Below are positions 1 to 60,549 of a DNA stretch of 64,000 nt, in pieces (the first letter of the stretch is position 1; each line of letters opens with the position of its first letter). Source of the stretch: Siphonodentalium dalli (taxonomy: Eukaryota; Mollusca; Scaphopoda; Gadilida; Siphonodentaliidae); assembly GCA_032622095.1 (NCBI GenBank), contig CP136067.1, positions 81,494,705-81,558,704 of the forward strand, read 5' to 3'. The notes below the pieces were generated by a model. That model made no database searches and had not been told where the DNA came from. It saw nothing but the letters and a program-made list of their open reading frames with translations. The translations under genes were made by a program, and so were the position numbers.

Positions 1-1015
1 TGTTGTGGTTGTTGTTGTTGTTGTGGTTATGGTCGACGTGCTTGTTGTTTCGGTTGTCGTTGTGTTTCTTGTTCTCGTTTGTGTTGTCCTTTTTATTGGC
101 GGTGTTGTAGTTGTCCTTGGTGTTGTCGTTTTTTGTGTTTTCGTTTGTGCTGTCGTTGCTGGTGTTGTCGTGTTTGCTGCTGTCGTTGATGTTGGTGCCG
201 TTGTAGTCGTTGGTGTTGTCGTTGTCATTTGTTTTGTCGTTGTTGGTGTTATGGTTGGTGTTGTTATGATTGATGTTGATGGTGTCTTTGTTGTTATTGT
301 TGTTAGCATTTTCGTATTTGGTGTTTTGGTTGTGCTCGTTGTCGCTGGTGTTGTCGTTGTTGCAGTTTTTGTCGGTGTTGTCGTTGATGTCGTTGGTGTT
401 TTTGTCGTCGTTGTCATTGGTTTTGTGGTTGTTGTAATTTGTATTGTTGTTTGTGGTGTTGTTGTAATTTGTGTCGTTGGTGTTCTTGTTGTGGTTGTTG
501 TCCTTGTCTCAGTTTTTGTCGGTGTTGGTGTTGTCGTTGGCGCTGCCATTGTAGTTGTTGTCGTTGATGCTATCGTTTGTGTTGTATGTGTTGTAGTCGT
601 TGATGTTATTGGCGTGGCAGCTGGTGACGGTTGTGTTGTCGTTGGCGTTGTCGTGGATTTCGTCGTTGTGGTTGTGGTTATTGGTGTTGTTGTCATTGTA
701 GTTGTTGTCGTTGTTGTTGGCGTTTGTGTTGTCGTTGTTGCTGTTGTTGCTGTTGTGGTAGTTGTCGTCGGTTTTGTTGTTGTTGCTTTTTGTGCAGTAG
801 TCGTTGTGGCTGTAGTAGGTGTTGATGTTGGTGGTGGTGGCGTTATGGTTGTTTTGGGTGATGTTGTCGGTGTCGTTGTTGGTTTCGTCGTGGATGTCGT
901 CGTTGGTGTGCTTGTTGTGGTCTTTATCATTGGTGTTGTCGTTGGCGTTGTCGTTGTGGTTATTGCCGTTGTGGTAGCTGTCGGTGTAGTCGTTGCTGTG
1001 GCTGTTGTAGTAGTC

Positions 1016-1060
<45 letters not shown>

Positions 1061-1124
1061 TGTGTTGTTCGTGGAGTGGTTGTTGTTGCTTTCGGTGTAG
1101 GCGTATTTTTGCAGCTGTTGGGAC
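1..1124 (-). CDS. Gene A exon 2 (partial): Thr-rich mucin domain
   Basis: Open on the minus strand through all 374 codons, continuing past the window edge. The acceptor reads ttttctaag|GTCCC, and the exon starts with PNSCKNTPTPKATTTT, matching the start of gene B exon 2 (PNSCKRTTTT). After that nearly every codon is ACN, with scattered Pro, Asn, Lys, Gln and Ser. The plus-strand frame over the same bases is an equally long poly-Val/Cys reading that only mirrors the ACN repeats. Near its start the exon carries an (ACT)n run coding poly-Thr. No Cys is seen beyond the first few residues. Confidence 0.72.
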
Positions 1125-9448: not shown

Positions 9449-9483
<35 letters not shown>

Positions 9484-9543
9484 GTTTGTGTGTGTGTGTG
9501 AGGGTGTGTTTGTGGGGGTGGGTGTGGGGGTGTGTCTGGGATG

Positions 9544-9575
<32 letters not shown>

Positions 9576-11658
9576 CCCAAATTTGTACCATGGCCTACAC
9601 TGTGTCTTAAAAGATGACTCACCAAATTTCACGCCGATTGATCAAAGCAAACCTGAGATCTAACATGGTCCCCAAATGAAGTACTTGCACTCTTGAAAGT
9701 ATAGACACTATTTCTTATGATGTTTGTCGAAATGAAGTCACGTGACGTCGCACGCAAACCCACAGTTGCTTTGCTATTGTAGACGAAACTCCCATGCCCT
9801 TTACCAAAGCGTTGTTGGAAATAGGCGCATGTAGTTGGGTGTAGAGTCGAGACTCGAACGCTCTACCATCGTTGGGAATGGGTGCTAATATGGTATTTCA
9901 ATTTGCCAGTTCGGTGTGAACATAAGTAAAGAATGTTCTTTTTTATATGAAAATTGTGCATTGAGTGTGGAGTCGAAGGAGTATCGGTATACCCGGAAGA
10001 TGGCGAATGGACATGCATTATCTGACCTCCCGCCAGTGGGTACCGTTCAGTAGATTCGCCGGAACTCAGTTAGAAAAACCATTCCAGGGCCGGGACTAAT
10101 AATCCACTGTAAACAATACTGCCGACGCTAATTAATGCTCTTTTAATCTTTCAGTTGAGTGCAAATCTGATAAGAATGTTTAAAAGATCAAAATGTGCGC
10201 GAAGCGCGCGCTGTTTAAGATCATATAATGTGCGTGAAACGCACAAAGGGGCCGTAGACCCCCCCCCCCCGCCAAATAAAGGCTCCCGAATGCAATATGT
10301 GCATGCATATATGTGGGTTGGGGAGAGGTGGGGGTAAAAAATACAGTTTTGTTGAAATAAAGTGTTCCTACAAATGGGCCGCAGTGCAGGGGCCTATGAC
10401 CCTCAGGCTGCATGATCCTGCATGATGCATGAATACAGAACTCCAAAGGCGGTCCGTTTAAGATCAAAATGTGCCACAAGCTCGCTTCGTCGCCGAATAA
10501 AGGCTCTTGAATTGAGTATATATGTTTCAGTTAGTATGTAGTATGGGGTTAATATGTGTGGATAGGGCGAATGTGGACCTTTCGTTATACACCAAAAGGA
10601 GCCCTCTATGCGCTGTATTTAAAATTGGATTTTCCGTACGTTACCCCACAAGTCATGCAAACAAAAGATCGCACCTCACAAGTACCCTGTGGTGCGTACG
10701 TCCGTCCATCCGTCCGTCCGTCCGACCTCATAACTCGAACAACTATGAACCAATTTCAATAATTTTTGGTATGCAATCTCCTTAGGACTGCCTCTCCGCA
10801 TGATGCTAATTGCTAATTGCTAATCACTTTTTCGGTTTCCGGATGATATCTCAAGTATGGATCCTTTAATTGCAAATACCGTTTTTGTGTAGATCAGTCA
10901 TATCAAGATACAGGTTTAGTTCGAATTTGATTTTTTCTAGAGTAATGGACTTTTTTCGACTTAGAAAATTAAATTTTACTTGTTTTTTTCTTTGGTTTCC
11001 GGATGATAACTCAAGTTTGGATTGTTTAAATGGAAATTCTGTTTTTTTTTGTGTGGGTCGTTCATATCAAAATACAGGTCAAGTTCGAAATTGAGTTTGA
11101 TCCAATGATTTTTCCCAAAGTAATGGGCCTTTCGACTTTGAATTTTTTTCTTATAATTTTCTGTTTTTCTGTATGAGGGTACGTTCATGGTGTAATCAAC
11201 TCCTCCTACAGTTTGGTCGTAGATAATTGAAACTTCCTTTTTTCTGGATGCTATCACACTCGACAAAAGCCATCTTAGATGTTAAGGTTACTTTTCATTT
11301 TCTACCCTTTTTTGGGTTCGAACAAATATGAACCAATATCAAAATTATTAATCCAAATTTTTCTTTAAAGTTAAAAATCTTTTTTGTTGGGTTTACGGAT
11401 AATGCGGGTTGAATTTGACACGGTGGGGGTATGCTAGCACTCGAGTGCACACCTCTTGTTTGTTTCTGGACCCCCCCCCCCCCCCTCCGAGGATATTCAA
11501 TAACGGCATGATTAATGAGAAGAGATAATTGGTAAAAACTTACTGTTACCGTGGGGGTTGCAACCAGCAGGCCAGTGTTTTCCTCTGTCCTCTTTCACGG
11601 GCACGAGGGACATCGCACCACAGAACAGGGCAAACCAGATTGACACCCGCCACATCAT
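1..11658 (-). CDS. Gene A: mucin-like secreted or membrane protein, 3' end outside the window
   Basis: Two-exon view of a minus-strand gene: exon 1 at 11,544-11,658 and exon 2 from 1,124 to beyond base 1. The junction is phase 1 on both sides (A|GT gives Ser39) and restores a loop reading CNPHGNSPNSC, residues 33-43, almost the same as the junction of gene B. The encoded protein is a signal peptide, a short linker, the Cys loop, then at least 370 residues of Thr-rich sequence, expected to be heavily O-glycosylated. The transmembrane and cytoplasmic exons seen in genes B and C would lie left of the window. The 10.4 kb intron is filled with a dead LINE and MITEs. Pairing the two exons over this distance rests on phase and on similarity to gene B, not on transcript evidence. 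Confidence 0.6.
1012..1059. repeat. Trinucleotide microsatellite inside gene A exon 2
   Basis: About sixteen copies of AGT on the plus strand, (ACT)n on the coding strand, read in frame as a run of Thr. A length change by one unit keeps the frame, so the tract can vary without breaking the gene. Confidence 0.85.
1125..3205. other. Gene A intron, no feature seen
   Basis: AT-rich sequence with no ORF, repeat structure or splice-consistent exon that I can support. Confidence 0.5.
3206..5742 (+). mobile_element. LINE A, degenerate non-LTR retrotransposon (endonuclease and reverse transcriptase part)
   Basis: Decayed L1/Tx1-like element inserted antisense to gene A. The start reads like the beginning of an APE-type endonuclease (ISINCRGLR near 3,220). 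Around 4,660-4,800 the reverse transcriptase motif RGFIPGRYIGE, followed by FRKAFDSVS, is readable across stops. A cleaner piece at 4,886-5,137 contains the catalytic box SQYADDTTVF. It is followed by 5,170-5,352 (LLGINFNL) and 5,349-5,621 (TPLGRIVVVKSLILSKL, then FSWQKKPDKI), which is the usual order downstream of the catalytic box. The frame is broken many times by stops and shifts, so it cannot be active. The element is interrupted at 5,743 and resumes near 7,259. Confidence 0.8.
5743..7258. mobile_element. Terminal-inverted-repeat element nested in LINE A
   Basis: The left end GCGCGTACACATGGCCAGCA and the right end, read on the other strand as GCGCGTACACATGAAGCTGC, form an inverted repeat that continues into a shared GCAAGAAAATATCAGGTA. 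The LINE reading resumes on the far side, so this is an insertion of about 1.5 kb. It has no transposase ORF and is therefore non-autonomous. The decamer GCGTAAATTG occurs at both 5,717 and 7,257, but it is not adjacent to the left end, so the target duplication is unresolved. The first 190 bases are related to 11,821-12,003 in reverse orientation. Confidence 0.65.
7259..8172 (+). mobile_element. LINE A, 3' part
   Basis: Continuation of LINE A after the nested insertion. The stretch 7,822-8,172 translates to a C-terminal piece with the typical CDCPTINSLWHEIQMWVF pattern found after the reverse transcriptase in L1/Tx1-type elements (Cys-x-Cys-Pro, then L-W), followed by a Lys-rich tail and a stop near 8,170. 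The upstream part to 7,820 is recognisable only in broken frames. Confidence 0.65.
8173..8850. other. Gene A intron, LINE A 3' flank and short repeats
   Basis: No gene. The string CACAGCACCTATCTACGTT occurs twice, near 8,620 and 8,757, about 137 bases apart. Short poly-A/T runs near 8,361 and 8,543 may mark retrotransposon tails. Confidence 0.4.
8851..9146. mobile_element. Foldback MITE
   Basis: Two arms of about 105 bases, 8,851-8,955 and 9,040-9,146, are near-perfect reverse complements. Both carry AATAATTATAACAAAGGTAT (or its complement) and GGCTTTATGT. About 85 bases of unique sequence separate them. It would form a long hairpin, and the apparent ORFs in the arms are by-products of the palindrome. 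Confidence 0.75.
9450..9574. repeat. (GT)n microsatellite, compound
   Basis: Interrupted GT/GGGT tract. The His/Thr-rich and Cys/Val-rich ORFs over it are artefacts of the dinucleotide repeat. Confidence 0.95.
10160..10510. repeat. Dispersed repeat with short hairpins
   Basis: The phrase TTTAAGATC(A)AAATGTGC recurs near 10,180 and 10,455, and GTGCGCGAAGCGCGC and GTGCGTGAAACGCAC are small palindromes. C and G homopolymer runs are present. No coding signal. Confidence 0.4.
10690..11430. repeat. Diverged repeat block beginning with (CCGT)n
   Basis: It starts with a CCGT tetranucleotide run at about 10,698-10,723. The phrase GGTTTCCGGATGATA(A/T)CTCAAG then occurs at about 10,836 and 10,996, with similar following sequence up to ATATCAA(G/A)ATACAGG, giving a diverged unit of about 160 bases. 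No coding signal. Confidence 0.5.
11544..11658 (-). CDS. Gene A exon 1: signal peptide and first half of Cys loop
   Basis: Starts with two adjacent ATG codons (11,656-11,658 and 11,653-11,655), then a hydrophobic core WRVSIWFALFCGAMSLV typical of a secretory signal, then a charged linker (KEDRGKHWPAG) and the half loop CNPHGN. It ends at a strong donor, AACA|GTAAGT, in phase 1 after 38 codons. The plan is the same as gene B exon 1: signal peptide, Cys-x-Pro-x-Gly-Asn, phase-1 donor. It is too short for ordinary ORF finding. Which of the two ATGs is used cannot be decided. Confidence 0.68.
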
Positions 11659-13951: not shown

Positions 13952-14209
13952 AGCTTCAATGAGTTTCCTGCCATTTGCGAAAACCCTGTGCCAATGAATG
14001 CTCTTATATATGCGAGTCGGACATAGGGAGCCTCGCATATATAAGAGAATACATTGGCCTAACAATATTATATTTACATTGACACTGTAAGCCATTGCAT
14101 TCTCTTATATCATATATGCGAGTCTCCCTGTGGGCGACTCCTATATATAAGAGGATGCGCTGGCATAATATTTTAATGCCGCACCAGCGCAGCTCCCGTC
14201 ATAAAATGG
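13952..14209. mobile_element. TTAA-type MITE with two internal palindromes
   Basis: A TTAA at 13,948-13,951 precedes the left end, and a degenerate TCAA follows the right end. Inside are two hairpins of about 70 bases, 13,990-14,058 and 14,091-14,164, built on GCCAATGCATTCTCTTATAT and a TATGCGAG stem. Reverse-complemented, it aligns along its length with the better-preserved copy at 46,992-47,255 (shared GCACCAGCG, TTTGCGAAAACCCTGTGCC). No ORF. Confidence 0.7.
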
Positions 14210-16198: not shown

Positions 16199-16360
16199 TT
16201 ATTGTCCAAAGACAGTAATTCCATCCCCGAATTCTCCACCACTCAAGGATGGCGTTGATCCGTGAATTTCATCGTGGAATGTAACACCTCCCTGGTAGAC
16301 GCTGTTCTCTCCGAAGTCTATGATCGCTCTTTCTGATATGCTCGGTCGGTCAAGTTTGAA
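16199..16360 (-). CDS. Gene B exon 4 (tentative): cytoplasmic tail and stop
   Basis: Acceptor aatcaatttcag|TTC, then 53 open codons to TAA at 16,199-16,201. The reading begins FKLDRPSISERAIIDFGENS and ends GGEFGDGITVFGQ. It is hydrophilic, acidic and Gly-rich, plausible as a cytoplasmic tail. It needs phase-0 entry, which fits exon 3 only if that exon ends at AAG|GC. If exon 3 instead ended in phase 2, the reading here would stop after about 14 codons. It has no match I recognise. Confidence 0.4.
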   Translation of the reverse strand, partial: FKLDRPSISERAIIDFGENSVYQGGVTFHDEIHGSTPSLSGGEFGDGITVFGQ

Positions 16361-19300
16361 CTGAAATTGATTTAAAATAATGTGAAACACTCTGGTATGG
16401 ATCAAATAGAAATGGAGAGTAATCTTACTTAAGTTAGTTATTTTTATGAATATTAATCCCAATTTACAACACACACACTGTCACTCGTATACTTTAATAA
16501 AATGCTATGACTCTCGATCGCGAAATAATTTTCGTTAGTTTATCGCCGATTGTTGCGTTCCGAATCGAGATGTAAATATTTACAATTGAGCGTTGGTCAT
16601 CACCGTCATGTGCAGACGATGTTTTCTATGGAGTGGTATGGTTGATTTCTTTGAGATTTTCGGCAATGTTAGTAGAATGCTACATTCCCAATGGGACCGA
16701 GGCCGCACAGTAGTGCCGCTATTGGCCTCCAACTTGCCCTCATAATTTTAATAATGTACCTGCAATAACATGACACGCAGACCGGACCCACATGTCGCCC
16801 TCATACCACTAAGAACCCCACACACAATTGTAGCGCAACTACCGTCGAATACATTCGCGTAGAAACAAGGGGGAATTGCCCACCATAGTCTGATAATTAA
16901 TCCTCGAAATTCGTCCATCGGAATATGTTTGCCGATAATGAACCCCAACCTTTCACTTGTCCGGAATTGCAATATTGTGTGGAGTTCTTAGCGGTACGAG
17001 GAAGACATGGGGTCCCGTCTGCTTGTCATGTTAAATTGCAGGCACAACTGCATTCTGTCAAGTTAGGGTTTAATAGCGGCACCACTTCTGTGTGGCCGCG
17101 GCTCCCCGTCCGTGTGTGGGTGGGTTTTCGTGAGACAATTTGGACACTCCATAAAATGTTCTCTTGACAGATCCCTGATTGTTCTGTATAGTTCAATACT
17201 AACCGGATGCGGGCCAATCACATCTGATGGAACACCTGTAATGGATAAAGTGATTTACCACATCATCAATCCATGGATCATTTCATATACAGTAATGCTC
17301 TAAGTAATCGACTTCTTAACCACAGCAGAATTATGGGTAACTTTTCAGGATTTAGTCGGAAATATGGCTTGTTGCCATTCATCGGAAAGCTCTCGGGGAA
17401 GTATGTTAATGCAACGTTGAATTGAGTGGGAGTTTGACTCAAATGACCGTGGTGACTCAAATGACAGTATACTGCGTTTACAAGCCATATTGACCGCTGT
17501 TTGCTTCAGAAAGAACTTATTAGATATAGTTTACACTTGATGGGAACAAAGCCTTGATAGAACTCATGTAATGTGAACTGCTATTTGTGTCGAGATGAAA
17601 GTATTCAGTGTTGTCACTAGATAAATGGTGTGTCTCAGACAGGACGAAATATCAAAACTCATCTGATATTGTTGAGAATATATCGTTCCTTGGCGAAATG
17701 TATACATGTATATATGCCGTACCATATTTTACAACATAGCTATATGCATCTGCCTTAGACATCTTCTGGTCGTGGTGGACTTTCAGCCGACGTCGTCTAC
17801 AATTAAATCAAACACCACGGGTTACAATTAAGCATAATCCGTAAATTCCGCATTCACATATATGCGCATGGTCGTTTCCATTGAAGTGCTTTGAAAGTGG
17901 CGTAAATATGCGTTCACTAAATTAATTATGAAATAGTGGTGTACATACATGTAGTTTTTAGTATTATTGTCGGCTTCCGTCATGTGAGGGGATCATTTAG
18001 ACACATGGTTGGAATTGCCGCAAATGGTCAATGGGCGAGGTGCGAAATTATCTGCGAAATTATCTAAGCCCAGAAGTTTCTAATACATAATGTATCTAAT
18101 AGGAAAAAATGTGTGGAGTAGTCCAATGTGTGTGTGCACATAATTGAATCATTTGGACATATGGCCTCTGACCATCGGAGCTAACTTGGTATGAACTATA
18201 TTGTCATTCATTATACTAGTAACTGGCTCTAAGTGGGCAATTTAATTGTAGTTTTGTATTTTTGTTGAATACACTAAATCTTCCAATGGCATATGTGTAC
18301 GAAAACAGCATTGTCGTCGGCAGATAAGAGGAGCACTACTGAGACTTACCTGACGAAAGCGAAGCACAAAACAGAGAACAGAACAAACACAGACGTCCCC
18401 GCAACTCCTATGATAACTGTAAATATGTCGGCATTTATTGGAACATCGTGGCCTGTTATGTGGTTGGTTTCACCTTCAACGTTAAACGTTGGTTTTCCCG
18501 TTGACTTTAGTTCTGAAGTCGCTGTTTCCGTCTTCATCATGGTTACCATCTGTCTGGTAGAACCATTACTACCGGTTGCAATACTAGTTTTGGTAGCGGG
18601 CATAGATGCATGTGATGCCAGTGTGGTTACTGATGGTCCTGGTGTGTCCTTTCCCGTCATCTTTGTGGACGTTGTCCTCGTAGATAGCTTCGTAGAAGTC
18701 GGCGTTTTTCCAATGGTTGTCAGTGTCATCAGCAACGTTGTTTCCCCTGTTATCACTGTTGTTTGTGGTGCAGTTGATGGCTTCACAGTTACCGAACTGT
18801 TGATAATAGACAGATTGGTAGAACTAGCAGTAACTGTCGTATACCCAGTATATGTTGTCAGTGAGGGCGTAACAGTGGACGTCGTCGTCACCATGCTTGG
18901 CGGTGTTGTTGTTTGTTGTACTATGGTATCCGACTGTGCAGTCAAAACGATAGAACTAGCAGTTGTAAACATAGTAGTTTTTGTCATTGAGGGCTTAACA
19001 TGCGTCGTTGTCGTAGATTTTGGCGTTGCGGGTGTACCGGTCGTCGTTATCGTCACCATGCTTGGTTGCGTTGTTCTGTGTTGTACTGTGGTATCCGAGT
19101 GTGCAGTCAAAACGGTAGAACTAGCAGTTGTAGACATAGTAGCTTTTGTCATTGATGGCTCAATAGGCGTCGTTGTCGTAGCTTTTGTTGTTGCGGGTGT
19201 ACCAGTCGTCGTTATCGTCACCATGCTTGGTTGCGTTGTTCTGTGTTGTACTGTGGTATCCGAGTGTGCAGTCAAAACGGTAGAACTAGCAATTGTAAAT

Positions 19301-22300
19301 ATAGTAGCGTTTGTCGTCGTTGTCGTAGCCTTTGTTTGTGAGGACGTAACCTGCGACGTTGTGGTTGATGTCACAATTATACTAGTACATGTAGTATCAA
19401 TTGTTGTAGTAGAAGTATGCGTTGTTGACGTTGTAGAGGTTGGTGTTGCTTCCGTTGTGGTGATTGTCTTCGGTTGTGTTGGATTTGTGGCTGTTGGCGT
19501 TGTAGCTGGTGATGTTGATGGTGTACTTCTGAATTGCGGTGGTGTTGCTGGTGTGTATTCAGTACTATCGTGTGGCGTTTTTACTGCTGCTGTTATTGGG
19601 GTTTGTCTTGTTGTCTTAGTAATTGATTTTGTTATTGCTATTGGCGTTGTTATCGTTGTGAGTTGTGGTGTTGTGTTCGCTGTTGATGTTTTCGATGATG
19701 CAGTTGCTGGCCTTGTTGTTGGGTTTATATTTGTTATTGGGGGTGTTGTAATAGCAGGTGGAGCTGTTTTCATTGTTACTGTTGACGTTGTTGTTGTTGT
19801 TGTTGCTGGAGAAATTTCTGTTGTCGTTTTCATTGGTGATATCGTCGGCGTTGTTGTTGTTGATGTTGTTGGTGTTGACGTTGTCGTCGTTATCGTTGTT
19901 GTCGTTGTGGTCTTTCGTGTTGCTGTTTGTGTTGCCGTTGTGGTTCTTGTTGTATATGTTGTTGTTGCCATTGCTGTTGTCGTTGGTTTTATTGTTATGG
20001 TCGGTGTTATCGTTGTGGTTGTTGTTTTTTGTGTTGTTTCTATTGTTGTTGTCGGTATTTCTGTCGTTGGTTTTGTTATCGTCGTCGTTGAAATTGTTGT
20101 TGTTGTTGTTGTCGACGACATCTTCGTCTGTGTTGTCGTTGGTCTTGTTTTCGGTGTTGTTCTTGCTGTTGCTGTCAGTGTTGTCGGTGCTGTCAATGTT
20201 GTGGTCTTCGGTGTTGTTGTCGTTTGTGTTTTTGTTGTTGTCGCTGTGGTTGTTGTCGTTGTTGTTGTCTTTGGTCTTGTCGTTTGTGTTGCTGTTGTCG
20301 CTGTGGTTGTTGTCGTTGTTGTTGTCTTTGTGGTGGTTGTCGTTTGTGTTGTTGTTGTCGTTGTTGTTTTCTTTGGTCTTGTCGTTGTGGTTGTTGTCAT
20401 CGTCGTTTGTGGTTTTGTTATCGCTGGCGTTGTTATTATGGTTATTGTCGTTTGTGTTGTTGTTGTTGTTGTTGTTGTTATTGTCGTCGGTGTTGTTGTC
20501 GTTGCTGTTGTAGTCTTTGGTGTTGTCGTTGTCGTTGCTGTCGTTGTTGTTGTTGTTGTTGTTGTCGGTGTTGTTGTCGTTGGTGTTGTAGTCGTAGTAG
20601 TCGGTGTCGTCGTCGTCGTTGTTGAAGTTGTTGTTGTTGTCCGTTTGCAGCTGTTGGGACCTGAAGAAGGGAACAAACTGCATGCCGTTAGTGTAAACAT
20701 ATTTTATTGCATAATAATATCGCAACGGGATTGAGACACAAGTTTTACAACTTACAAATGGTCTCTCTCCCCACATAATTGTATTACACAAAATGAACAT
20801 AATATATAATCACACACAAACATTATAATTAATATGTACAACGTCTTTTCACCTATAACAATATAATGATATAATCGCGAGTGTGACAATAACGGTGGAT
20901 ATTTCTCTTTATTGGGGGGGGGGGTGGTTCGTCCTGTGGGTCGGTGGCTCAGGCGAGTCTTCGCCTACTATATATATATGTAGTGATAATACAACATCTT
21001 ACTTTTGCAGCGTAGGTTTGCACATTAAGGTGTTTAATAAAATTTGAACCGCGATGTCGAGGTTATGTATAATTGAACAGCCCTAAATATGTTCCGGTTT
21101 TGTGTACTATTCAGGTTAGTATCTCCAAGGAGGAGTTTCTCGAGATTAATAGTTTGTACACCAATGGTAGCGAGTTGGTGAAACAACAAACATCGTTGAT
21201 CTGTGTAAAATGGACAAACAAAAAAATATTGATTTGCTTCTTCGACCGGGTGACCACAACGACAGCTTGGGTTGTCCGATATGAAGTTAGAAAATTTGTC
21301 AGCGTTTAAATCGCTACAGTAATTTCGAAGTTTGCAATGAATTATGTTTATCGCGCGATTTCCGAAATTAAAATAGTCTGGTGGCGCAAGAACTGGATCA
21401 GTCGTTAGGTATTTTGTTTTTAAAATACTAATGGCAGATGATTCTTTTATTTTATTTTATTTGACAGGGTATTCCATTCCCTAGTTGTATTTGGGGACAA
21501 TGTGTGTTCAAAATGGACAGTTCTTTTCAATGAGTATGGAGGAAAACTTGTTTTATCTCTAAAATCATATCTAGCAGCTGATTCTGGGTGGGTGGGTAAG
21601 AGATTGTTGAGATATTTAGGGGTCTTGTTATTAGTTATTCTGTACATGATATTCATTCTATGAGATTTCCTTCTGTTTATTAACGTTTGCTACCCCAATT
21701 CTACTAGCAAGTTTTTCACAGGAACGGATCGCGTGAGACCTGTAACAATTCGACCCACGTCCGCTTGGATGCGATCTAATTTTGAAATTACATTTGCTGG
21801 GGCGGAGTCCCATACAACGTCAGCGTAATCCACCAAGTGCAATATGTACGCTCGATAAATTGTGTCTAAGGTTTTCCTATTTAAAGAAAATTTCAATTGT
21901 CTTAAATGTGCAAGGCGGCCATATATTTTCTTTGATAACTCATTGATATGTTTGTCCCAGTTTAGGTCACTCTGTATGTTCAAGCCAAGGTGTTTGTGTG
22001 ATTCTACTTGGGTTATAGGTTCACCACTGAGAAAAAGATGTATGTCAGGCTGGGCACCGGTATAAGAAAATGTCATAGATTTAGTTTTACTACTATTGAA
22101 TTTTACTAGCCATTGTTTTGACCATTTATTTATGGCTTTAAGATCAGTATTTACACCGTCCTCAAGGTCCTGGAGACTTCCATTGCTAGCAGTGAGGCAA
22201 GTATCATCCGCATACATTCTAGTGAAAGATTTAATATTTTCAGCGAGATCATTAATATATACCAAGAATAAGAAAGGGCCAAGAATGCATCCCTGGGGGA

Positions 22301-25243
22301 CACCAGCGAGTATCTTTTTATATTCTGAAGACGTGTTATTTACCATCACCCTTTGTTTTCGATCTGAGAGATAATCATTAATGAAAGCAAGAAGTGGTCC
22401 GGAAATTTCACATCGTTCAAGTTTATATTCCAGTCCCTCGTGCCAGACCCTCTCGAATGCCTTAGATATATCACAAAATACAGCACATGTATGCAGTTTA
22501 TTCTCGAGGGCTTGGCTAAGGGAATGGTTAAGTTCTAACAGTTGGAATATAGTTGAATGCCCAGGAAGGAAACCCGATTGGAAATCGTAAAAGAAGCCTT
22601 TGGTCTCGAAATGCTTAAAAAGATATTTAAGAACAACTTTTTCAAAAACTTTCACCAGTTATCGGCAGTAAAGAGATCGGTCTGTAATTCTTAGGATTTG
22701 AGCGATCGTCATTTTTAAATATTGGAATCACATTAGCTTTTTTCCATTCATCGGGGAATTTACACTCTTTGAGAAATAATTTTGAGGGGCTGAACGATGG
22801 CATATTTTGTTTCAAGAAGCATTCTTGCACTTATTCCATCGTGACCGTGTGCCTTGTTAAGTTTAAGAGATGAAATAGCTTCCAATATTTCTTCCGTCTT
22901 TACAGGCACATTACTAATGGTGGGGGGTATAGCCTTAATAATGTTTGGTTTGGCGGTGGGCAGCGCGGAGTTGCCGATAAAACTGTCATTTAACAGAGTT
23001 GCCTTCGATAAATCGTCGACAATAATTTCATAGGAATCGTTCCCAGTTGTTAACTTAACCGGGGGTAGGGATCCGTTTTTGGTTCGGTTCAGAATATTAT
23101 TAACCATTTTCCAAAAATACCTCGGGGAGTCTGCTGATGTTAGATTACGCTGAAGATTGTTTTCAAATTTTTTTCTTGCCTATTTTTTTCATATTATTCA
23201 TGGTATTTCGCGCCTTTTTAAAAGTGTTCCAATCAATTAAATTTCCGCTATGAATAGCCTTTTTCCTCAGTTTATCCCGTTTTCTCAGTTGCTTACGAAT
23301 CTCACTGTTGAACCAGTATTTATCTTTCGGTCTGATGAGAACGACGCGACTAGGTATAGTTTCTCGCATAATAGTTAAAAAATCGTTAGTGAACAGTTCA
23401 ACAGTTTCGTTTACTCCAAAACCTTTCGTCAGTTTAAGCCAGTCCTTATTTTTAATTATTTGATTCAGATTCAGATTCTTTATTAACATAAACACTCTCT
23501 AGGAGCAGTATGCAAGATGAATTACATAAAATATATATATATATACATATAGATTGTGATTTTTTCATTGGATAGTTATGTATTTCAATGTATACATAAA
23601 CAATAAATAAATGTTTACCGAGGCAAACATGTATTGAAAAGATGTCATTTACTGTTATGTATGTTTATAAAGTATTTGGCAATGTATGTAGTTCTTCAGT
23701 TTTAGAAGAAATAAACCTCTCTCTATCTATATTTGTATCAGTCTGCACGTATCTAAATATCTCTCAGTCTCAACTTTTGTGATGCGCGCTGAAAATTAGC
23801 GGCTCCATAATTCTACACTTCATGCCGTTGTTGGGCGACAAAGGGGGGGGGGGGTGGGATATATTGCAGAAGAGGCGAGTTTGCTCAAAGCCAACTATCT
23901 GAAGTATTACTTCAGCTTGCATTGAGTAAACTGGACTAGCATGCGTAGCCGGTCAACCTAATCATGAACTGGGCACAAAATACGGCACACACTGGTAATA
24001 CTATGGTTGCTACTTCCAAGTCCCTCCCGGATGATGAGTCTGTGTTACTGCAAGGGGCGACCAGTGTTAGGGTGTACGGGGAATGTCGTTTTTTGTATTG
24101 TATTAGGTACCTTATGTAATGTGGCCTACATGACAATGTACAACCTTCGATGAGGAAAATTTATAACAGTAAAATCATACCCAGATTTGTTCATATGGCC
24201 TAGTGCAGGCGGCGGCACAATTTCCACCAGGAGATGGGCTAAGATCACATATAATACGCACACGTTTAAAGGTACTCAATCTTTGGCTTCGGGGGTAAAA
24301 TATATTTGATTCGAGTCGAGGAACCCACCCATCAAAGCCCAGAGTGATCAGATGTAGATTTTTCTCGAGATTTGTCATAATATGTGGCCCAGTATCACGT
24401 GGTCAAACGGAGGGTCTCGGACAAAATTGCGGATGAAGATGGATAAATCTAAAATCAAGTGGTAATACGGTCAGATTTCGTGATACTTTAATGATAATAC
24501 GGCCATATTTTGTTGAACAAAATGTTGATAAATATCAAGTTTTGGGAAATTTGATACCATTGTTGACAGTAGTTAGCATTATTTTGATGCAAGAAATCGA
24601 TTCTGATAACTAAAGCGTATCTTGAAGAAATGTTGTTGTTGTTGTTGTTGTTGTTGTATATTGATGGTATGGGAACCGCATGATCGGATTGAGTACCTTT
24701 AAACAGCGAAATACACTTATTCGGAGTTCAAGATTAAATAGCAATTGGTGTACCATCGAGATAACACGTGATGTTAGGATTATATATCGCAAAGAGTATC
24801 CTGAATTAATCGGAAGGTGATAATCCAATATAGAACGTACTTTTAACTAAATAACGGACATTTTCTGAAACTGTTTAAAATACCACAAAAGTTCAACTTT
24901 GGTCGCACATGAGTGCACATCTCCGTTATTTAGATGTCATAATCATTCCAAAATGAGGTATATTTAGTGACTGGTTGGCTCCGGTTTCCCACCTTCCATT
25001 AAATCGGGATACTCATTTTGAAATACTATCCTATCATCGCGTGGCACGTGTTACTCAGATTGGATACGAATCGTTATATAATCGTGAACCCACCATTATA
25101 TATTGTTTTATATATAATCCTTGTCGTATTCGCTTCTGAGATATATACTCACCATTTCCGTTTGGCTTGCATGGTTGCTGTGGTTTAGCGCTGGCTGCAA
25201 GCGATAACAGACCGCAGAATATTGTAAACCATAAATATTTCAT
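16199..25243 (-). CDS. Gene B: Thr-rich mucin-like type I membrane protein
   Basis: Model: exon 1 25,153-25,243; exon 2 18,350-20,660; exon 3 17,754-17,796; exon 4 16,199-16,360; 869 codons with stop. Layout: signal peptide (1-19), Cys loop CKPNGNGPNSC (25-35), a Thr-rich region of about 740 residues including three 55-residue repeats, a transmembrane helix ending FSVLCFAFV (about 776-800), an Arg-rich anchor and an acidic/Gly-rich tail. It should sit in the plasma membrane with a long O-glycosylated ectodomain. Exons 1-2 are strongly supported by phase and by the gene A and C parallels. The exon 3 acceptor is good, but its donor would be a weak GC site, so exon 4 is tentative. A LINE occupies intron 1 on the same strand. 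Confidence 0.68.
16361..17289. other. Gene B intron 3, no feature seen
   Basis: No exon, repeat or ORF that I can support. Confidence 0.35.
17290..17398. mobile_element. Half copy of the CAGTAATGC palindromic MITE
   Basis: Matches one arm of the full palindrome at 39,392-39,604 (CAGTAATGC end, AATTATGGGTAACTTTTCAG, GGAAAGCTCTC at the centre). The second arm is missing. It lies inside gene B intron 3. Confidence 0.75.
17754..17796 (-). CDS. Gene B exon 3: Arg-rich stop-transfer segment
   Basis: Acceptor taattgtag|ACGACG. With the phase-2 end of exon 2 (FAFV, AG|) it reads RRRRLKVHHDQKMSK, a basic cluster directly after the transmembrane helix, as expected for a type I protein and closely parallel to RRRKHKRKHS in gene C. 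The 3' boundary is uncertain: a GC donor at AAG|GCAGAT gives phase 0 and fits exon 4, while a weak GT two codons earlier gives phase 2. Confidence 0.5.
18350..20660 (-). CDS. Gene B exon 2: Thr-rich ectodomain and transmembrane helix
   Basis: Acceptor ttcttcag|GTCCC, donor CAG|GTAAGT, entry phase 1 and exit phase 2; 2,311 bases. It starts (G)PNSCKRTTTT. About the first 330 residues are almost pure Thr with Pro, Lys, Gln and Asn. The composition then diversifies (Ser, Ala, Ile, Val, His). Three 55-residue repeats follow, then a less repetitive juxtamembrane part (TSELKSTGKPTFNVEGE) and the helix IFTVIIGVAGTSVFVLFSVL ending CFAFV. Only the first Cys pairs with the exon 1 Cys, and another Cys lies in the helix. 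Long opposite-strand Val-rich and frame-shifted Asn/Asp-rich readings exist but mirror the ACN repeat. Confidence 0.78.
18870..19330. repeat. Three 165-base in-frame repeats in gene B exon 2
   Basis: The marker GTGCAGTCAAAACG occurs at 18,936, 19,101 and 19,266, exactly 165 bases apart, with high similarity between units. Each encodes a 55-residue block with LTA(H/Q)SDT and PSMVT. The two units nearest the amino end are the most alike, pointing to recent tandem duplication. Confidence 0.85.
21080..23490 (-). mobile_element. LINE B, 5'-truncated non-LTR retrotransposon in gene B intron 1
   Basis: The minus-strand readings run in the right order: a pre-RT linker (23,163-23,495, DKYWFNSEIRKQLRKRDKLR), 22,760-23,107 with LNKAHGHDGISARML, 22,642-22,830 ending RPISLLPITG, and the reverse transcriptase core at 21,690-22,655 with FCDISKAFERVWHEGL, GVPQGCILGPFLFLVYINDL and the catalytic YADDT. 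Thumb and C-terminal sequence then follow to about 21,080, with a Cys-rich CRCGHPVEEANQYFFVC block. At least three frameshifts or stops break it, and no endonuclease is seen, so it is dead and 5'-truncated. It resembles jockey/CR1-type elements. Confidence 0.85.
24270..24698. mobile_element. TTAA-flanked MITE, AGGTACTCAATC family
   Basis: TTAA at 24,266-24,269 and 24,699-24,702 flank inverted ends AGGTACTCAATC and GATTGAGTACCT. The interior begins TTTGGCTTCGGGGGTAAAAT and includes GATTCGAGTCGA(G)GAACC. Related copies lie at 30,006-30,360, 47,877-48,165 and 61,385-61,590. A (TTG)n run at about 24,630-24,657 sits inside. No ORF. Confidence 0.75.
25153..25243 (-). CDS. Gene B exon 1: signal peptide and first half of Cys loop
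   Basis: ATG at 25,241-25,243, then MKYLWFTIFCGLLSLAASA, a clear secretory signal with likely cleavage after ASA, then KPQQPCKPNGN and the donor AATG|GTGAGT in phase 1. A longer upstream in-frame reading exists but lacks an earlier ATG. Joined to exon 2 it gives CKPNGNGPNSC. The reading continues into the intron only by chance. Confidence 0.75.
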
Positions 25244-31711: not shown

Positions 31712-32167
31712 CCCTTTACCCAACAAAACGGCCAAAAACACCCAAATAAAGCTTCAACAGCCTAAAATATCTTCGGTCTGTATCAATAACACCATACAAA
31801 TATGGATATCATTGGAACCGGTTCATTGACCACATTGTCATTGTTACAGTTATACCCTGTGCCAATGCATTCTCTTATATATGCGAGTCGACCATAGGTC
31901 GCCTCGCATATATAAGAGAATGCATTGGCCTAAAAAAATACTTTTTTAACACTTTTTACCATTTTTTCTTACATTCTTTAACAATTTTATAATTTTTTCT
32001 TACATTTTTAAACAATTTTTATAATATTTTTCTACATTCTTTGACAATTTTATCATTTTTAATATGTGTTAAGCCAATGCATTCTCTTATATATGCGAGG
32101 CGACCTATGGTCGACTCGCATATATAAGAGAATGCATTGGCACATGGCCGTTCTGTTGGGTAAAGGG
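31712..32167. mobile_element. TTAA-flanked MITE with paired 70-bp palindromes
   Basis: TTAA at 31,708-31,711 and 32,168-32,171 flanks inverted ends CCCTTTACCCAACAAAACGG and CCGTTCTGTTGGGTAAAGGG. The TTAA target and CCC termini are what piggyBac-type elements show. Two near-perfect hairpins lie inside at 31,861-31,929 and 32,073-32,141 (GCCAATGCATTCTCTTATAT arms, 69 bases each), separated by an AT-rich spacer of short repeats of TTTTTAACAATTTTATAATT type. No ORF. Confidence 0.8.
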
Positions 32168-37097: not shown

Positions 37098-39246
37098 GGG
37101 TCCTACTAAAACCCGACCGCACCCGACCGCACCCGACCGGACCGCCCCCAGGGGTCCGACCGAGATGGGGTGTGCACTATCGTGTAGAATGGACCCGAAT
37201 ATACCAAAGTTCTAATCCCCAAGTCGATAGCTCGAGCGAACACGGCACTGTTAACCCCTGACTTGCGGCCGTTTCCGCCAGGTACGGGAAATCCAAAAAG
37301 GCGCCGACCGCACCACCCCTGACTGCCTGACCACGAAAATGGACATTATATCATGAAGGAAATACGGCTATTCATCCATGCGCGATCGGACAAGTCGCTA
37401 GCTGCAGCGAAAGTGAATAAATTAACTCATACGCTGCTGCCGAATTCGCTATAAATGTACGCAAAAACGCCGAAATTAACACCCGCCGACCGGACCGCCC
37501 CCATGGGTCCGACCGAGATGGGGTTTGCACTATCGTGAAGAATGGATCCGAATGTACCAAAGTTCTAATCCCCAAGTCGATAGCTCGAGCGAACACGGCA
37601 CTGTTAACCCCTGACTTGCGGCCGTTTCCGCCAGGTACGGAAAATCCAAAAAGGCGCCGACCGCACCTCCCCTGACTGCCTGACCACGAAAATGGACATT
37701 ATATCATGAAGGAAATACGGCTATTCATCCATGCGCGATCGGACAAGTCGCTAGCTGCAGCGGAAGTGAATAAATTAACCCATACGCTGCTGCCGAATTC
37801 GCTATAAATGTACGCAAAAACGCCGAAATTAACACCCGCCGACCGGACCGCCCCAGGGGTCCGACCGAGATGGGGTTTGCACTATCGTGTAGAATGGACC
37901 CGAATGTACCAAATTTCCCATCCCCAAGTCGATAGGTCGAGCGAACACGGCACTGCTAACCCCTGACTTGCGGCCGTTTCCGCCAGCTACGGGAAATCCA
38001 AAAAGGCGCCGACCGCACCTCCCCTAACTGCCTGACCACGGAAATGGACATTATATCATGAAGGAAATACGGATATTCATCCATGCGCGATCGGACAAGT
38101 CGCTAGCTGCAGCGGAAGTGAATAAATTAACCAATACGCAGCTGCCGAATTCGCTATAAATGTATGCAAAAACGCCGTACATTCGGGTCCATTCTATACG
38201 ATAGTGCAAACCCCATCTTGCTCGGACCCCTGGGGCGGTCCGGTAGGCGGGTGTTAATAGCGACTTGTCAGATCGCGCATGGATGAATAGCCGTATTTCC
38301 TTCATGATATAATTTCCGTGATCAGGCAGTCAGGGGAGGTGCGGTCGGTGCCTTTTTGGATTTCCGTACCTGGCGGAAACGGCCGCAAGTCAGGGGTTAA
38401 CAGTGCCGTATCCGCTCAAGCTATCGACTTGGGGATTGGAACTTTGGTACATTCGGGTCCATTCTACACGATAGTGCAAACTCCATCTCGCTCGGACCCC
38501 TGGGGCGGTCCGCTCGGCGGGTGTTAATTTCGGCGTTTTTGCATACATTTATAGCGAATTCGGCAGCAGCGTATGGGTTAATTTATTCACTTCCGCTGCA
38601 GCTAGCGACTTGTCCGATCGCGCATGGATGAATATCCGTATTTCCTTCATGATATAATGTCCATTTTCGTGGTCAGGCAGTCAGGGGAGGTGCGGTCGGC
38701 GCCTTTTTGGATTTCCCGTAGCTGGCGGAAACGGCCGCAAGTCAGGGGTTAACAGTGCCGTGTTCGCTCGAGCTATCAACTTGGGGATTAGAACTTTGGT
38801 ACATTCGGGTCCATTCTACACGATAGTGCAAACCCCATCTCGGTCGGACCCCTGGGGCGGTCCGGTCGGCGGGTGTTAATTTCGGCGTTTTTGCGTACAT
38901 TTATAGCGAATTCGGCAGCAGCGTATGGGTTAAATTATTCACTTCCGCTGCAGCTAGCGACTTGTCCGATCGCGCATGGGTGAATAGCCGTATTTCCTTC
39001 ATGATATAATGTCCATTTTCGTGGTCAGGCAGTCAGTTGTGGTGCGGTCGGCGCCTTTTTGGATTTCCCGTACCTGGCGGAAACGGCCGCAAGGCAGGGG
39101 TTAACAGTGCCGTGTTCGCTCGAGCTATCGACTTGGGGATTAGAACTTTGGTACATTCGGGTCCATTCTACACGATAGTGCAAACCCAATCTCGCTCGGA
39201 CCGCTGGCGGCGGTCCGGTCGGGTGCGGTCGGGTTTTAGTAGGACA
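37098..39246. mobile_element. Foldback transposon of about 2.15 kb with internal tandem units
   Basis: Ends are inverted: GTCCTACTAAAACCCGACCG at 37,100 and its complement ending at 39,245. The nonamer GGGCATCTC flanks both sides (37,089-37,097 and 39,247-39,255), a 9-bp target duplication. Inside, a GC-rich unit of about 355 bases recurs three times on the left in one orientation (starting near 37,140, 37,495 and 37,849) and about three times inverted on the right, with the turn near 38,170-38,260. Unit landmarks are GCGGCCGTTTCCGCCAG, CTATCGACTTGGGGAT and GCGCGATCGGACAAGTCGC. No transposase. A 9-bp duplication with long arms is typical of Mutator-like foldback elements. Confidence 0.82.
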
Positions 39247-39391
39247 GGGCATCTCTATCAGATTTGATCGTACCGTGATGCAAAATTACGACAATTTGAT
39301 GTATAGGTATATTACAGCGTACGTAGCGTCCTTCACAAAAATGTTAGCACAGTGTACCATAGGAAGATGGTATTTTCACAGTGCATAGCTA

Positions 39392-46991: not shown

Positions 46992-47255
46992 CCCTTTCGT
47001 GGCGGGGGCTACGCTGGTGCAACAGTAAAGATCATGCGCTAGTGCATTCTCTTATGTATATATAAGAGTCTCCCATATATGGAGCCTCGCGTATATAATA
47101 TAATGCACTGGCTTACAGGGTGAAGGTACATATTGTTAGGCCATTGTATTCTCTTATATATGTGTGGCTCCCTATCGGAGACTCGCATACATAAGAAAAT
47201 GCATTGGCACAGGGTTTTCGCAAAATTTCAGGAAGTTAATTCAGTCATGGAAGGG
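46992..47255. mobile_element. TTAA-flanked MITE with paired palindromes
   Basis: TTAA at 46,988-46,991 and 47,256-47,259. The ends CCCTTTCGTGGC and, inverted, CCCTTCCATGAC agree with a piggyBac-like terminus. Two internal hairpins lie at 47,038-47,112 and 47,140-47,208. Same family as 13,952-14,209, in opposite orientation. Confidence 0.75.
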
Positions 47256-49090: not shown

Positions 49091-49395
49091 TTAGTAAATT
49101 GGTGTATTTATGTTCTCAATAATGTTGCCTCCGTTCATTGCTTTCTGCATGCGAGTCCTAAATTTAGCACTACGCCGTTTAGTACACAGCTCTCGACCAA
49201 TCAGATGGCACCATTTCTAGCATCACGTCGTGAACCTTATCCACTCCGCTGGCTACTGAAACCGAGGAGTGGACAACCTCAAGCTCTCTTTGATATGATC
49301 ATGTACGTAAACGTAATTTGCGCCCGCTTGTTACTGTTCATGGGATTATCGGATGAATTGTTATCTGTATAGAAGGAATATGATGATAAACCCTA

Positions 49396-50128: not shown

Positions 50129-50871
50129 TATAATGGGACACAAGAAAATGATATATACAATGTATGTAAATAATCACATATAACGTAAATGTGGATATTT
50201 AGCCTGCCATGTAATACGAGTCTCAGCTGTCTGGCCATCGACGCAGTCCTGTCTGGAATTTTGCGCGCCGGTGTAGGTAGTGACGTCATGATGTACGTCT
50301 TGATATCATGACGCCTTTACTGGTTTCCCCAAGAAGCAATCTTAAAATGACTCTGCGATCTTTCAATCGGAACTTAAAGTTTCCGTTTGTCGGCCTTGAA
50401 CTTTGAGAATATTTCATCAATCTTTTAGGCGGAAATACCGTTAGAAAATTGAAGATAATATGTAAACGGCCAGCAAGGTCGCTAGATTCCTCTTTCGGGG
50501 TAAATATTTTTAATAATTTTATGAAATATGTAAACAAAACTTTTTCATGCAATTTAACTTTTTTGTTAAACAGAGCTTTTGTTCAGTTAACATTTACTTT
50601 TTGAAAATATATTTGGCTTTAGGAGCATGATGTTCCTACATATGATGAAGTATAGCTAACAGTTGCTAGATCAAAGGTTTTTTATTTTTGCTCTGGAGCA
50701 TTTTGCCCAATTACACATTTCGAGGTGGCTTTAATCAATACAAAATGGCGGCCGTCGCCAACAATCATTTTTGGACTCCGCTGACCTTTGAATTATGAAT
50801 AAATTATTCTACTGATTGCGCTATGTGTAAGAAACACGCGAACAAGCATGAGTTTAGTGTGCCTGTCATTT
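50129..50871. other. 3' flank of gene C
   Basis: Holds the possible gene C 3' untranslated region. No other gene is supported. Confidence 0.35.
50681..50686 (-). terminator. Possible polyadenylation signal of gene C
   Basis: AATAAA on the minus strand, about 215 bases after the proposed stop codon. Such hexamers are common in AT-rich DNA. Confidence 0.3.
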
Positions 50872-50963
50872 GCAGAATGAGGTCCCCAGAGGGTGAATTT
50901 TATGATGCTATCCCGAGTAGCAGACTAGCATCAACAAATTCACCCCATGTGACCTCATTCTGC
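50872..50963. repeat. Imperfect hairpin overlapping the gene C stop codon
   Basis: Arms 50,872-50,909 and 50,927-50,963 pair through GCAGAATGAGGT and GGTGAATTT with few mismatches. Degenerate copies of the same motif occur near 50,995-51,045 and 51,203-51,228. Confidence 0.65.
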
Positions 50964-51099
50964 ATGGCCTCATCTGCTATGGGAGACATAGACTCAGAAT
51001 GAAGTTCCCAAAAACATAGACTCAGAATGAAGTTCCCAAAATAATGGTGAATATTGTGATGTAGACCCATTTGGGAACCTAGATTATGCAATGTGTCGC
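50900..51099 (-). CDS. Gene C exon 8: cytoplasmic tail and stop
   Basis: Acceptor ccaaattggcag|GCGAC, phase 1, 65 residues to TAA at 50,900-50,902, ending VTWGEFVDASLLLGIAS. It joins exon 7 as TLSGDTLHN. The exon contains an in-frame direct duplication (GGAACTTCATTCTGAGTCTA twice), and its end lies in an imperfect hairpin whose motif recurs nearby, so part of this coding sequence may be repeat-derived. An alternative last exon cannot be excluded. Confidence 0.5.
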
Positions 51100-60000: not shown

Positions 60001-60549
60001 CTGAATAGCATTCTGCTAAGAACTTCACAGACAACAGAAACAATTGTAGGTCCCCGATGTATCACTTGGTAAAGAGCATGGCATGCATGCGCCGTTCGGT
60101 GATGGCGGAGATGTCTGTATTTCAACCCCAACTGTCCTATGCGTCTCACTATTAACAGTATATACATACGGGGGTACATTGGACACTTTTAAAACTCGAG
60201 AAATCAGTTATTACTGGGATACTGCCAGATACTGGCCATTACACTCGTTTTCGTTGTATTGTGTAATGAGTGAAACCGAACAGTTTTGGTATAATTTGTG
60301 ATATCATGCACGGTTAAGAAAACTGTTGCATTAATGCACGCACGCATGTTTATATATTTCAATATTACATACAATATACATTTACACACATACCCAGAGG
60401 ACCGCGACAAATCAGTATATACATTAGAGATGTTTCGGGTAGAGTTGTCACTCACTAGTTTTGTAGTATGGCCCAAAGCTGTCCCACCAGCACGATCCAT
60501 CGCAGACGAGGAACAGCAACAAAATTACGAGCGTAGAACTCTTCTTCAT
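50900..60549 (-). CDS. Gene C: multi-exon mucin-like type I membrane protein, about 1,300 residues
   Basis: Eight exons (60,456-60,549; 59,792-59,908; 57,794-58,447; 56,031-56,675; 54,209-54,892; 52,230-53,664; 51,291-51,364; 50,900-51,099) total 3,903 bases, exactly 1,301 codons, and every phase agrees. Order: signal peptide, basic segment, two duplicated Ser/Thr-rich blocks, two related Thr-rich blocks starting GPGSCFQWYYHLMVS, a transmembrane helix (about 1,184-1,209), a basic anchor and a cytoplasmic tail. Cys loops form at four exon junctions. It is expected to be an O-glycosylated cell-surface protein. It shares the loop and the (V/L)LCFAF(V/L)R membrane exit with gene B. Exons 3-7 are firm; exons 1 and 2 are well supported by phase and signals; exon 8 is weaker. 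I do not recognise a named family. Confidence 0.75.
51291..51364 (-). CDS. Gene C exon 7: basic membrane anchor and start of tail
   Basis: Acceptor aactttttcag|GAGG and donor TCAG|GTGAGT, both strong. Entry phase 2, exit phase 1, 74 bases. Joined to exon 6 it reads RRRKHKRKHSATETQWISSQ and then SDTLS. The Arg/Lys cluster directly after the helix fixes the type I topology. Gene B exon 3 has the same entry phase and place. Confidence 0.75.
51365..52229. other. Gene C intron 6
   Basis: Contains the 105-base tandem duplication at 51,673-51,885 and no other feature. Confidence 0.5.
51673..51885. repeat. Tandem duplication, 105-base unit
   Basis: Two nearly identical units start at 51,673 and 51,778 (ACGAAATTCATATA, GGAATTCGTGTACAATTTAT, GACGCTTGTAATCTTAATACG). 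They differ at about four positions, so the duplication is recent. Confidence 0.9.
52230..53664 (-). CDS. Gene C exon 6: Thr/Ser-rich block and transmembrane helix
   Basis: Acceptor ttttatgcacag|GTCC, donor TGAG|GTAATG, entry phase 1, exit phase 2. It starts GPGSCFQWYYHLMVSRGEIE. Then come SSQQPSLST-type repeats shared with exon 5, a middle part with Trp and charged residues, at least four 28-residue repeats built on TSTGAMTTTTT and TISTTTT, and a juxtamembrane part (HTHVTTVNHGSVSWASNTEG) before TIIQASVGVIGCLSGVIFCV and LCFAFL. The apparent stop straight after AGG is the first base triplet of the intron. Confidence 0.82.
52670..53015. repeat. In-frame repeats of about 84 bases in gene C exon 6
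   Basis: TCATCGCCCCCGTGGATGTT recurs at about 52,741, 52,828, 52,909 and 52,993, spacings 87, 81 and 84, all multiples of three. Unit lengths differ by whole Thr codons. Confidence 0.85.
53665..54208. other. Gene C intron 5
   Basis: 544 bases bounded by a GC donor (54,208 side) and an AG acceptor. Nothing else seen. Confidence 0.6.
54209..54892 (-). CDS. Gene C exon 5: Thr/Ser-rich block with GPGSC start
   Basis: Acceptor aacatggatag|GTCC; 684 bases, phase 1 to 1. It begins GPGSCFQWYYHLMVSMGKIE and ends ATCNPLGTG. Between are imperfect repeats of the type ASSQQPSLST, with Lys and Glu. The donor is GCAAGT, a GC-AG intron with otherwise perfect consensus. The nearest GT would be out of phase with exon 6. 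Its first 60 codons are nearly identical to those of exon 6, showing an exon duplication. Confidence 0.8.
54893..56030. other. Gene C intron 4 with two copies of a dispersed repeat
   Basis: Copies of the ACACGCTTGTTCC family lie at 55,050-55,400 and 55,455-55,560. The part from about 55,870 is duplicated at 57,640. Confidence 0.6.
55050..55560. repeat. Dispersed repeat, ACACGCTTGTTCC family, copies 2 and 3
   Basis: TTCCATATTTACAAATCCGT followed by GGAAC occurs in both. The first copy continues with GCGTTCGCCTCAACCATGGA and ATAACTCGAGGC as in 33,930-34,215. Confidence 0.65.
56031..56675 (-). CDS. Gene C exon 4: Ser/Thr-rich block, duplicate of exon 3
   Basis: Acceptor tataattacag|GCAT, donor ACCG|GTAAGT, 645 bases, phase 1 to 1. 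It starts (G)ICIPDASTSPVSVTKQTH and ends EYVCSVNGTG. Ser and Thr dominate, with basic residues (KRTSVFKTKATRKQTRSSVG) and GITLSSRGGSEKPVSRL. It aligns end to end with exon 3. Its last Cys pairs by position with the Cys of GPGSC in exon 5. Less purely Thr-rich than exon 6, so it may be a stalk with some folded character. Confidence 0.8.
56676..57793. other. Gene C intron 3
   Basis: The part nearest exon 3 (57,640-57,793) repeats 55,870-56,030, so the exon duplication included intron sequence. Readings of 75-97 codons near 57,200-57,500 on both strands have no supporting motif. Confidence 0.5.
57794..58447 (-). CDS. Gene C exon 3: Ser/Thr-rich block
   Basis: Acceptor ccttttgtacag|GCGC, donor GCCG|GTAAGT, 654 bases, phase 1 to 1. 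It starts (G)ACIPVGFTTSPDSVTKLTH and ends ESVCSMNGAG. Central part TSPFESKVTTKQTRSSVG and GITLSSIGGSEKPVSRL as in exon 4. The first Cys closes a loop with the CIPTGF Cys of exon 2; the last opens a loop with exon 4. Confidence 0.8.
58448..59791. other. Gene C intron 2
   Basis: No exon or repeat supported, apart from a poly-G run near 58,650. Confidence 0.45.
59792..59908 (-). CDS. Gene C exon 2: basic segment ending in half a Cys loop
   Basis: Acceptor tctttcacccag|GGGG, donor TTTG|GTGAGT, 117 bases, phase 1 to 1. It reads RGKTIVGNDNYSLSRRSRIL and then RSRDVGQQNRRLDCIPTGFG. RRSR and RILR fit proprotein convertase (furin-type) sites, so the segment may be a pro-region. The Cys-Ile-Pro-x-Gly-Phe pattern repeats at the start of exon 3 (CIPVGF). 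Confidence 0.65.
59909..60455. other. Gene C intron 1
   Basis: 547 bases between a GTGAGT donor and a CAG acceptor. A stretch near 60,050-60,130 has loose tRNA-like features but no complete tRNA. Confidence 0.5.
60456..60549 (-). CDS. Gene C exon 1: signal peptide
   Basis: ATG at 60,547-60,549, then MKKSSTLVILLLFLVCDGSC, a textbook signal peptide, then WWDSFGPYYKT and the donor ACTA|GTGAGT in phase 1 (31 codons plus one base). Joined to exon 2 the split codon is AGG. Longer readings on the opposite strand over this place are shadows. Confidence 0.7.

Follow-up and report, generated by a model that had tools for sequence, protein, structure and literature searches.

The stretch of DNA analyzed here (the window, 64,000 nucleotides in length) is part of contig C7, in a genome of 2.23 Gb that has been assembled in nine contigs, and contains three neighboring genes, A, B and C, all located on the minus strand. 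Their anatomy can be read directly from the sequence. Each gene has a signal peptide, at least one Ser/Thr-rich mucin exon and a transmembrane segment, the number of mucin exons being one in A, one in B and four in C. The signal peptides (exons A1, B1 and C0) were called by eye and the transmembrane segments were assigned from sequence and composition. Ser, Thr and Pro together account for 45-67% of the residues in each of the six mucin exons. The ectodomain closes in the transmembrane segment with CFAFIR in A, CFAFVR in B and CFAFLR in C, i.e., CFAF[IVL]R is common to all three, and the end of this segment is followed by AG/GTGAGC, AG/GTAAGT and AG/GTAATG, respectively. Every junction described below for these genes was deduced from DNA alone.

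Gene A starts with a signal-peptide exon (11544..11658, minus strand) that ends in the donor half loop CNPHGN, in front of the phase-1 donor ACA/GTAAGT. The second exon begins with the acceptor half PNSC, followed by Thr-rich mucin, and occupies positions 1..1124 of the minus strand within the window; most of it lies beyond, extending to window coordinate -1789, and includes the transmembrane segment. Gene B has the same arrangement, with a first exon (25153..25243, minus strand) that carries the signal peptide and the donor half CKPNGN before the donor ATG/GTGAGT, and a second one (18350..20660, minus strand) made up of the acceptor half PNSC, Thr-rich mucin and the transmembrane segment, ending at a phase-2 donor (CAG/GTAAGT). 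Between these two exons there is an open frame of 322 residues (window 21690-22658, minus strand) that matches the Pfam family RVT_1 (2.7e-30) and is probably a fragment of a LINE-type reverse transcriptase. Further downstream in gene B we found a tentative juxtamembrane basic exon (RRRLKVHHDQ..., 17733..17796, minus strand), whose limits were set by eye and whose 3' end is its most doubtful part, and a cytoplasmic tail exon (FKLDRPSISERAIIDFGENS..., 16199..16360, minus strand) that has a counterpart downstream of gene A. The tail exons of the two genes are identical at 26 of 54 aligned residues (22 of 50 leaving out the first four, which lie upstream of the inferred acceptor), and the juxtamembrane basic stretches at 8 of 14, a short and weak likeness that includes some intronic positions. 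This similarity supports that A and B are real and related genes, and both probably have a short cytoplasmic tail as well. The joining of these last exons (juxtamembrane and tail) is tentative in both genes, and least settled in A. On either side of the A and B junctions, stretches of 150 bases were only 45-53% alike where they could be aligned.

Gene C is more complex. Exon C0 (60456..60549, minus strand) encodes the signal peptide, ends at the phase-1 donor CTA/GTGAGT and carries no half loop. It is followed on the same strand by the short basic exon C1 (59792..59908), with the donor half CIPTGF at its end, and by the Ser/Thr mucin exons C2 (57794..58447), which runs from the acceptor half AC to the donor half CSMNGA, and C3 (56031..56675), a duplicate of C2 that runs from IC to CSVNGT. 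An alternative AG upstream of C3, noticed by eye, was discarded, since the phase-1 reading from it soon meets a stop. Exon C4 (54209..54892, minus strand) starts with the acceptor half PGSC and the residues FQWYYHLMVS, continues as mucin and ends with CNPLGT, while C5 (52230..53664, minus strand) has the same start, then mucin and the transmembrane segment. The 3' end of C5, GAG/GTAATG, would be either a splice donor or, if unspliced, an in-frame stop; no tail or juxtamembrane exons like those of A and B were found for gene C. The lengths of C1-C4 are all multiples of three and the joined exons C0-C5 give 1210 codons without a stop. At the C4-C5 junction the donor is a non-canonical GC (CTG/GCAAGT, window 54209), and an in-phase GT donor located 18 bases upstream in C4 scored 1.96 compared to 4.67 for the GC donor; if used, it would produce a T/GT split codon (again Cys) and a shorter C-PGS-C. 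Given the GC donor and its low score, this junction is the least certain of the six. Elsewhere in the window we observed two kinds of repeats. At 37121-39356, within a G+C-rich patch (43-47%), tandem units of ~352 bases stand opposite similar units in inverted orientation, with arms of up to 692 bases that are 97% complementary. The second kind, at 13974-14181, 31854-32158 and 47130-47225, is a short palindromic repeat found dispersed, whose ends are like CCAATGCATTCTCTTATATATGCGAG and which resembles a miniature transposable element.

After joining the exons, the loops read CNPHGN-S-PNSC in A, CKPNGN-G-PNSC in B and, along gene C, CIPTGF-G-AC, CSMNGA-G-IC, CSVNGT-G-PGSC and CNPLGT-G-PGSC. The element consists of two Cys in 9-11 residues with a Gly at C+4, the paired Cys being 7 or 9 residues apart, and there is one pair per mucin exon junction. 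A previous sequence-only reading had described extracellular exons that end in half a loop while the next one starts with its partner, always through phase-1 introns, in such a way that the loop is complete only after splicing. These three statements were borne out: six donor halves and six acceptor halves (PNSC twice, PGSC twice, AC and IC) are present on the minus strand, the open mucin frames demand phase 1 at every extracellular junction, and the two halves lie in separate exons at all six loop junctions. The split codon is A/GT (Ser) in A, G/GT in B and at C3-C4 and C4-C5, and G/GC at C1-C2 and C2-C3, whereas C0-C1 joins in phase 1 via A/GG (Arg) and forms no loop; thus, the seven extracellular junctions include five Gly, one Ser and one Arg. 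The same reading had stressed that the loops are split in Gly or Ser codons, and the splits are indeed there at the six loops, but the choice of Gly or Ser is largely a by-product of the splice consensus. In PMC1626468, phase-1 proto-splice sites are said to correspond to Gly codons, phase-1 introns to be in excess around signal-peptide cleavage sites, and extracellular modules to be often bounded by phase-1 introns. The loops of A and B sit near signal-peptide cleavage sites, and on the basis of the Gly proto-splice sites and the phase-1 excess described in that text the split codons found here are unremarkable.

The striking aspect of the pattern, which goes beyond the first observation, is the confinement of Cys to the exon edges. 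Over the 2800 residues of the six mucin exons, nine out of ten ectodomain Cys are located at six residues or less from an exon end (hypergeometric P 1.8e-15, a post hoc value obtained on related exons, with the transmembrane Cys and the short exons A1, B1, C0 and C1 excluded). The lone exception is the Cys at residue 424 of exon B2, far from any junction. The donor side gave a similar picture. The motif C-x3-G-x directly precedes the split codon in six of the seven family donors (the exception is C0) and in none of 67 background candidate donors, nine of which had a Cys 4-7 residues before the split codon. These candidates were GT sites scoring at least 6.5 with 40 open phase-1 codons before them, on both strands of 164 kb (the window plus 50 kb on each side); most of them are surely not true exon ends, the motif was picked after the family had been seen, and C4 (a GC site, 4.67) would itself fail the threshold. 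By a weight matrix, six of the seven family donors were among the top 3% of GT sites, and C4 was placed at 7.26% of that scale. Scanning both strands of the 164 kb with filters tuned on the A/B/C family recovered six family donors and three others, and, for the acceptors, four of the six of the family (C5 in two registers) with no further hits, the acceptors of A2 and C4 having failed the filters. On the minus strand of the left flank, at about -25970 and -30906, CGGKYYYICKRPR and CDEQNAFVCSKPL look like exon ends and precede strong phase-1 donors; their likeness by eye to the ends of C-type lectins was not confirmed by Pfam.

Duplication is directly visible in gene C. Exons C2 and C3 are identical at 165 of 214 aligned residues, and the introns that follow them agree at 135 of 142 aligned bases. 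The start of C4 recurs in C5, and genes A and B are paralogous to each other. The six loops are therefore not independent and derive from fewer origins. As had been predicted, duplication keeps frame and halves: it took place with the halves intact in both C2/C3 and C4/C5. The comparison of C2 with C3 gave a dN of 0.121 and a dS of 0.122, i.e., a dN/dS near 1 with no visible constraint, so that the retention of Cys in this pair proves little. Over the first 33 codons of C4 and C5, dN was 0.088 and dS 0.44 (0.55 and 1.06 for the whole alignment), values that come from few codons in the first case and from a poorly aligned mucin part in the second. The stretch conserved in these two exons after the junction exceeds the half loop (PGSCFQWYYHLMVS.G.IESTP) and, given the low dN compared to dS, PGSCFQWYYHLMVS looks constrained in gene C over more than the half loop.

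We have also searched for relatives. The Pfam models gave no match above cut-off with the six mucin exons (only the in-window part of A2) or with seven pieces taken from junctions and tails; the latter pieces had three matches below threshold (E 0.06, 0.15 and 0.44), which were rejected. In the PDB, which was tried with three of the six junctions, five matches appeared, all of them weak (E 0.42 to 1.4), and we judged them unrelated. Within these searches, the claim that the loop corresponds to no named domain stands. Against a protein database whose coverage of animals is uncertain, the whole gene C had no match at E <= 0.001 among the best 7987 candidates, and neither residues 745-875 of gene B (242 candidates) nor residues 505-590 of gene C (638 candidates) had any at E <= 1. 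Genome searches, which score only the best first-look candidates and may miss divergent relatives, returned only the loci themselves: C4 and C5 with the DNA of the C5 start, C5 with the transmembrane end of gene C, A and B with the tail of A, and C2 and C3 with part of C2. Over the 2.23 Gb, the acceptor pattern AGGTCCNRRCAGCTGC had five matches (22 for the reversed-pattern control), four of them in the A/B/C family; the fifth, in contig C9, reads PSSCMTQLMCVLL followed by a stop and was discarded. The donor pattern TGYNNNCCNNNNGGNAMYRGTRAGT, which covers none of the gene C loops, had 24 matches genome-wide (control 2), two of which are genes A and B. Another 21 belong to a single dispersed repeat, sharing 362-600 of 600 ungapped positions with one of its copies, and were rejected; so was one that follows CYACGCYGHKANVC, which resembles a zinc knuckle and not a mucin or signal-peptide exon. 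The copies of this repeat (L021-L031, L033-L040, L043 and L044) carry TGCTACCCAGGAGGTACTGGTGAGT, which mimics a Cys-containing exon end plus donor, one copy being one base off. Among the papers listed for mucins whose exons are in phase 1, duplicated or divided across a loop, none was on point. The family looks small and lineage-specific, as judged from searches that favor close relatives and took in a single animal genome.

Taken together, we consider it rather probable that A, B and C encode type I transmembrane mucins and make up a tandem family with minimal connectors, each a pair of Cys split by an intron. A different reading is that ordinary class 1-1 exon structure is enough to generate the half loops, the splice consensus supplying Gly codons at phase-1 borders, the few edge Cys going back through duplication to a single ancestral junction, and the loop having no role in cassettes. 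Much of what is described above fits it: the paralogy and exon duplication, the co-occurrence of phase-1 introns, Gly proto-splice sites and signal-peptide cleavage sites (PMC1626468), the five Gly out of seven split codons, as the consensus favors, and the lack of constraint in C2 vs. C3. However, the consensus leaves unexplained the Cys and the Gly located two residues before the split codon (C...G./ was found in 0/67 of the background), and also why the first codons of C4 and C5 appear constrained, and we regard this explanation as somewhat unlikely.

As to how the intron-split connectors might work, the two Cys of each pair would bond with each other, closing a very small hairpin that contains turn-forming residues (PNG, GPGS), and we see the case for such a local disulfide as evenly balanced. 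In A and B the hairpin would cap the mature protein close to its N terminus, and in gene C it would be a connector between mucin blocks. We infer that an early intron landed in a Gly codon beside the signal-peptide exon, as is commonly seen, and the presence of an intron inside the hairpin would be due to this event. Internal class 1-1 exons would then have borne one half at each end, and exon duplication in gene C would have multiplied the loop automatically. The Cys pairs might instead form disulfides between molecules, tying the mucins together in a mesh at the surface. Two points favor such a mesh: the two Cys of every loop stand alone in nearly Cys-free mucin, and gel-forming mucins crosslink by disulfides. 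A distance of 7 or 9 residues between the two Cys, together with turn-prone Gly and Pro, would rather favor a local bond, and we see the mesh as unlikely.

The mucin blocks had also been portrayed as interchangeable cassettes, with skipping of exons preserving frame and loop. When C1-C4 were included or left out in silico between C0 and C5, the 16 resulting forms all kept an open frame with no stop, and 15 of them have at least one C-x(6-9)-C loop, the only form with none being C0-C5. In the eight forms with C1 the ectodomain Cys are exactly twice the number of loops (excluding the first 25 residues, i.e., the signal peptide). However, the eight forms without C1 are left with one unpaired Cys, so C1 would have to be present in every form for skipping to leave no Cys unpaired. 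Hence frame and, with one exception, loops are preserved, but the pairing of Cys is broken in half of the forms, and interchangeable cassettes are shown as a potential of the sequence. That C1-C4 are alternatively spliced, and that the half loops persist because they give each isoform complete connectors, would agree with the open frames and loops and with the GC donor of C4 (PMC2490688 describes such donors as enriched in alternatively spliced genes), but is improbable given the unpaired Cys in 8/16 forms and the fact that symmetric exons alone yield the same frame and loop properties. Similarly doubtful is that the clasps are selected connectors and the mucin exons cassettes with complementary snap-ends, an idea that is possible but not needed. 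Equally hard to credit is its corollary, that alternative splicing (C4 first) and exon duplication would vary the length of the mucin with each Cys keeping a local partner.

If the loop of the probable mucin family is a real disulfide, it would be a minimal connector, below the size of a domain, placed on an exon border, so that duplication or skipping of mucin exons (except C1) would break no element, and exon symmetry would be tied to protein chemistry. If there is no disulfide, the locus would be a clear example of splice consensus and duplication mimicking design.

Among known systems, a close parallel is that of the symmetrical class 1-1 exons of modular extracellular proteins, whose modules are shuffled in phase 1. 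All four of C1-C4 are in phase 1 at both borders, as far as junctions deduced from DNA can tell, and can be duplicated or skipped without loss of frame. In the classical case a folded module lies inside the exon, whereas here the borders halve a small Cys-Cys element and the body of the exon is mucin; C2-C4 read as mucin with one Cys near each end, and not as a complete folding unit within one exon. The three genes also have, judging from sequence and composition, the features of transmembrane mucins in general, i.e., signal peptide, ectodomain rich in Ser, Thr and Pro, and transmembrane segment, to which a short tail can probably be added in A and B. Unlike membrane mucins of the SEA/EGF type, no SEA, EGF or other Pfam domain was found in the A, B and C pieces. 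The CysD domains of gel-forming mucins are Cys-rich interruptions of about 100 residues, with many Cys and their own Pfam model. They share with our loops the role of Cys-containing spacer between mucin blocks, but two Cys in 9-11 residues, with no Pfam match, do not amount to a CysD domain. EGF-like domains have a C-terminal Cys-x2-G-x-x-G-x2-Cys loop, and our loops, likewise small, with a Gly between the Cys and located at a phase-1 border, are reminiscent of them. However, here there is one Cys pair and not three, the Gly is at C+4 and Pfam gave no match; the six Cys in three disulfides of an EGF-like domain are absent, and we have rejected an EGF origin of the loops. The putative intron-split Cys-pair connectors are a variation on ordinary exon-built surface proteins.
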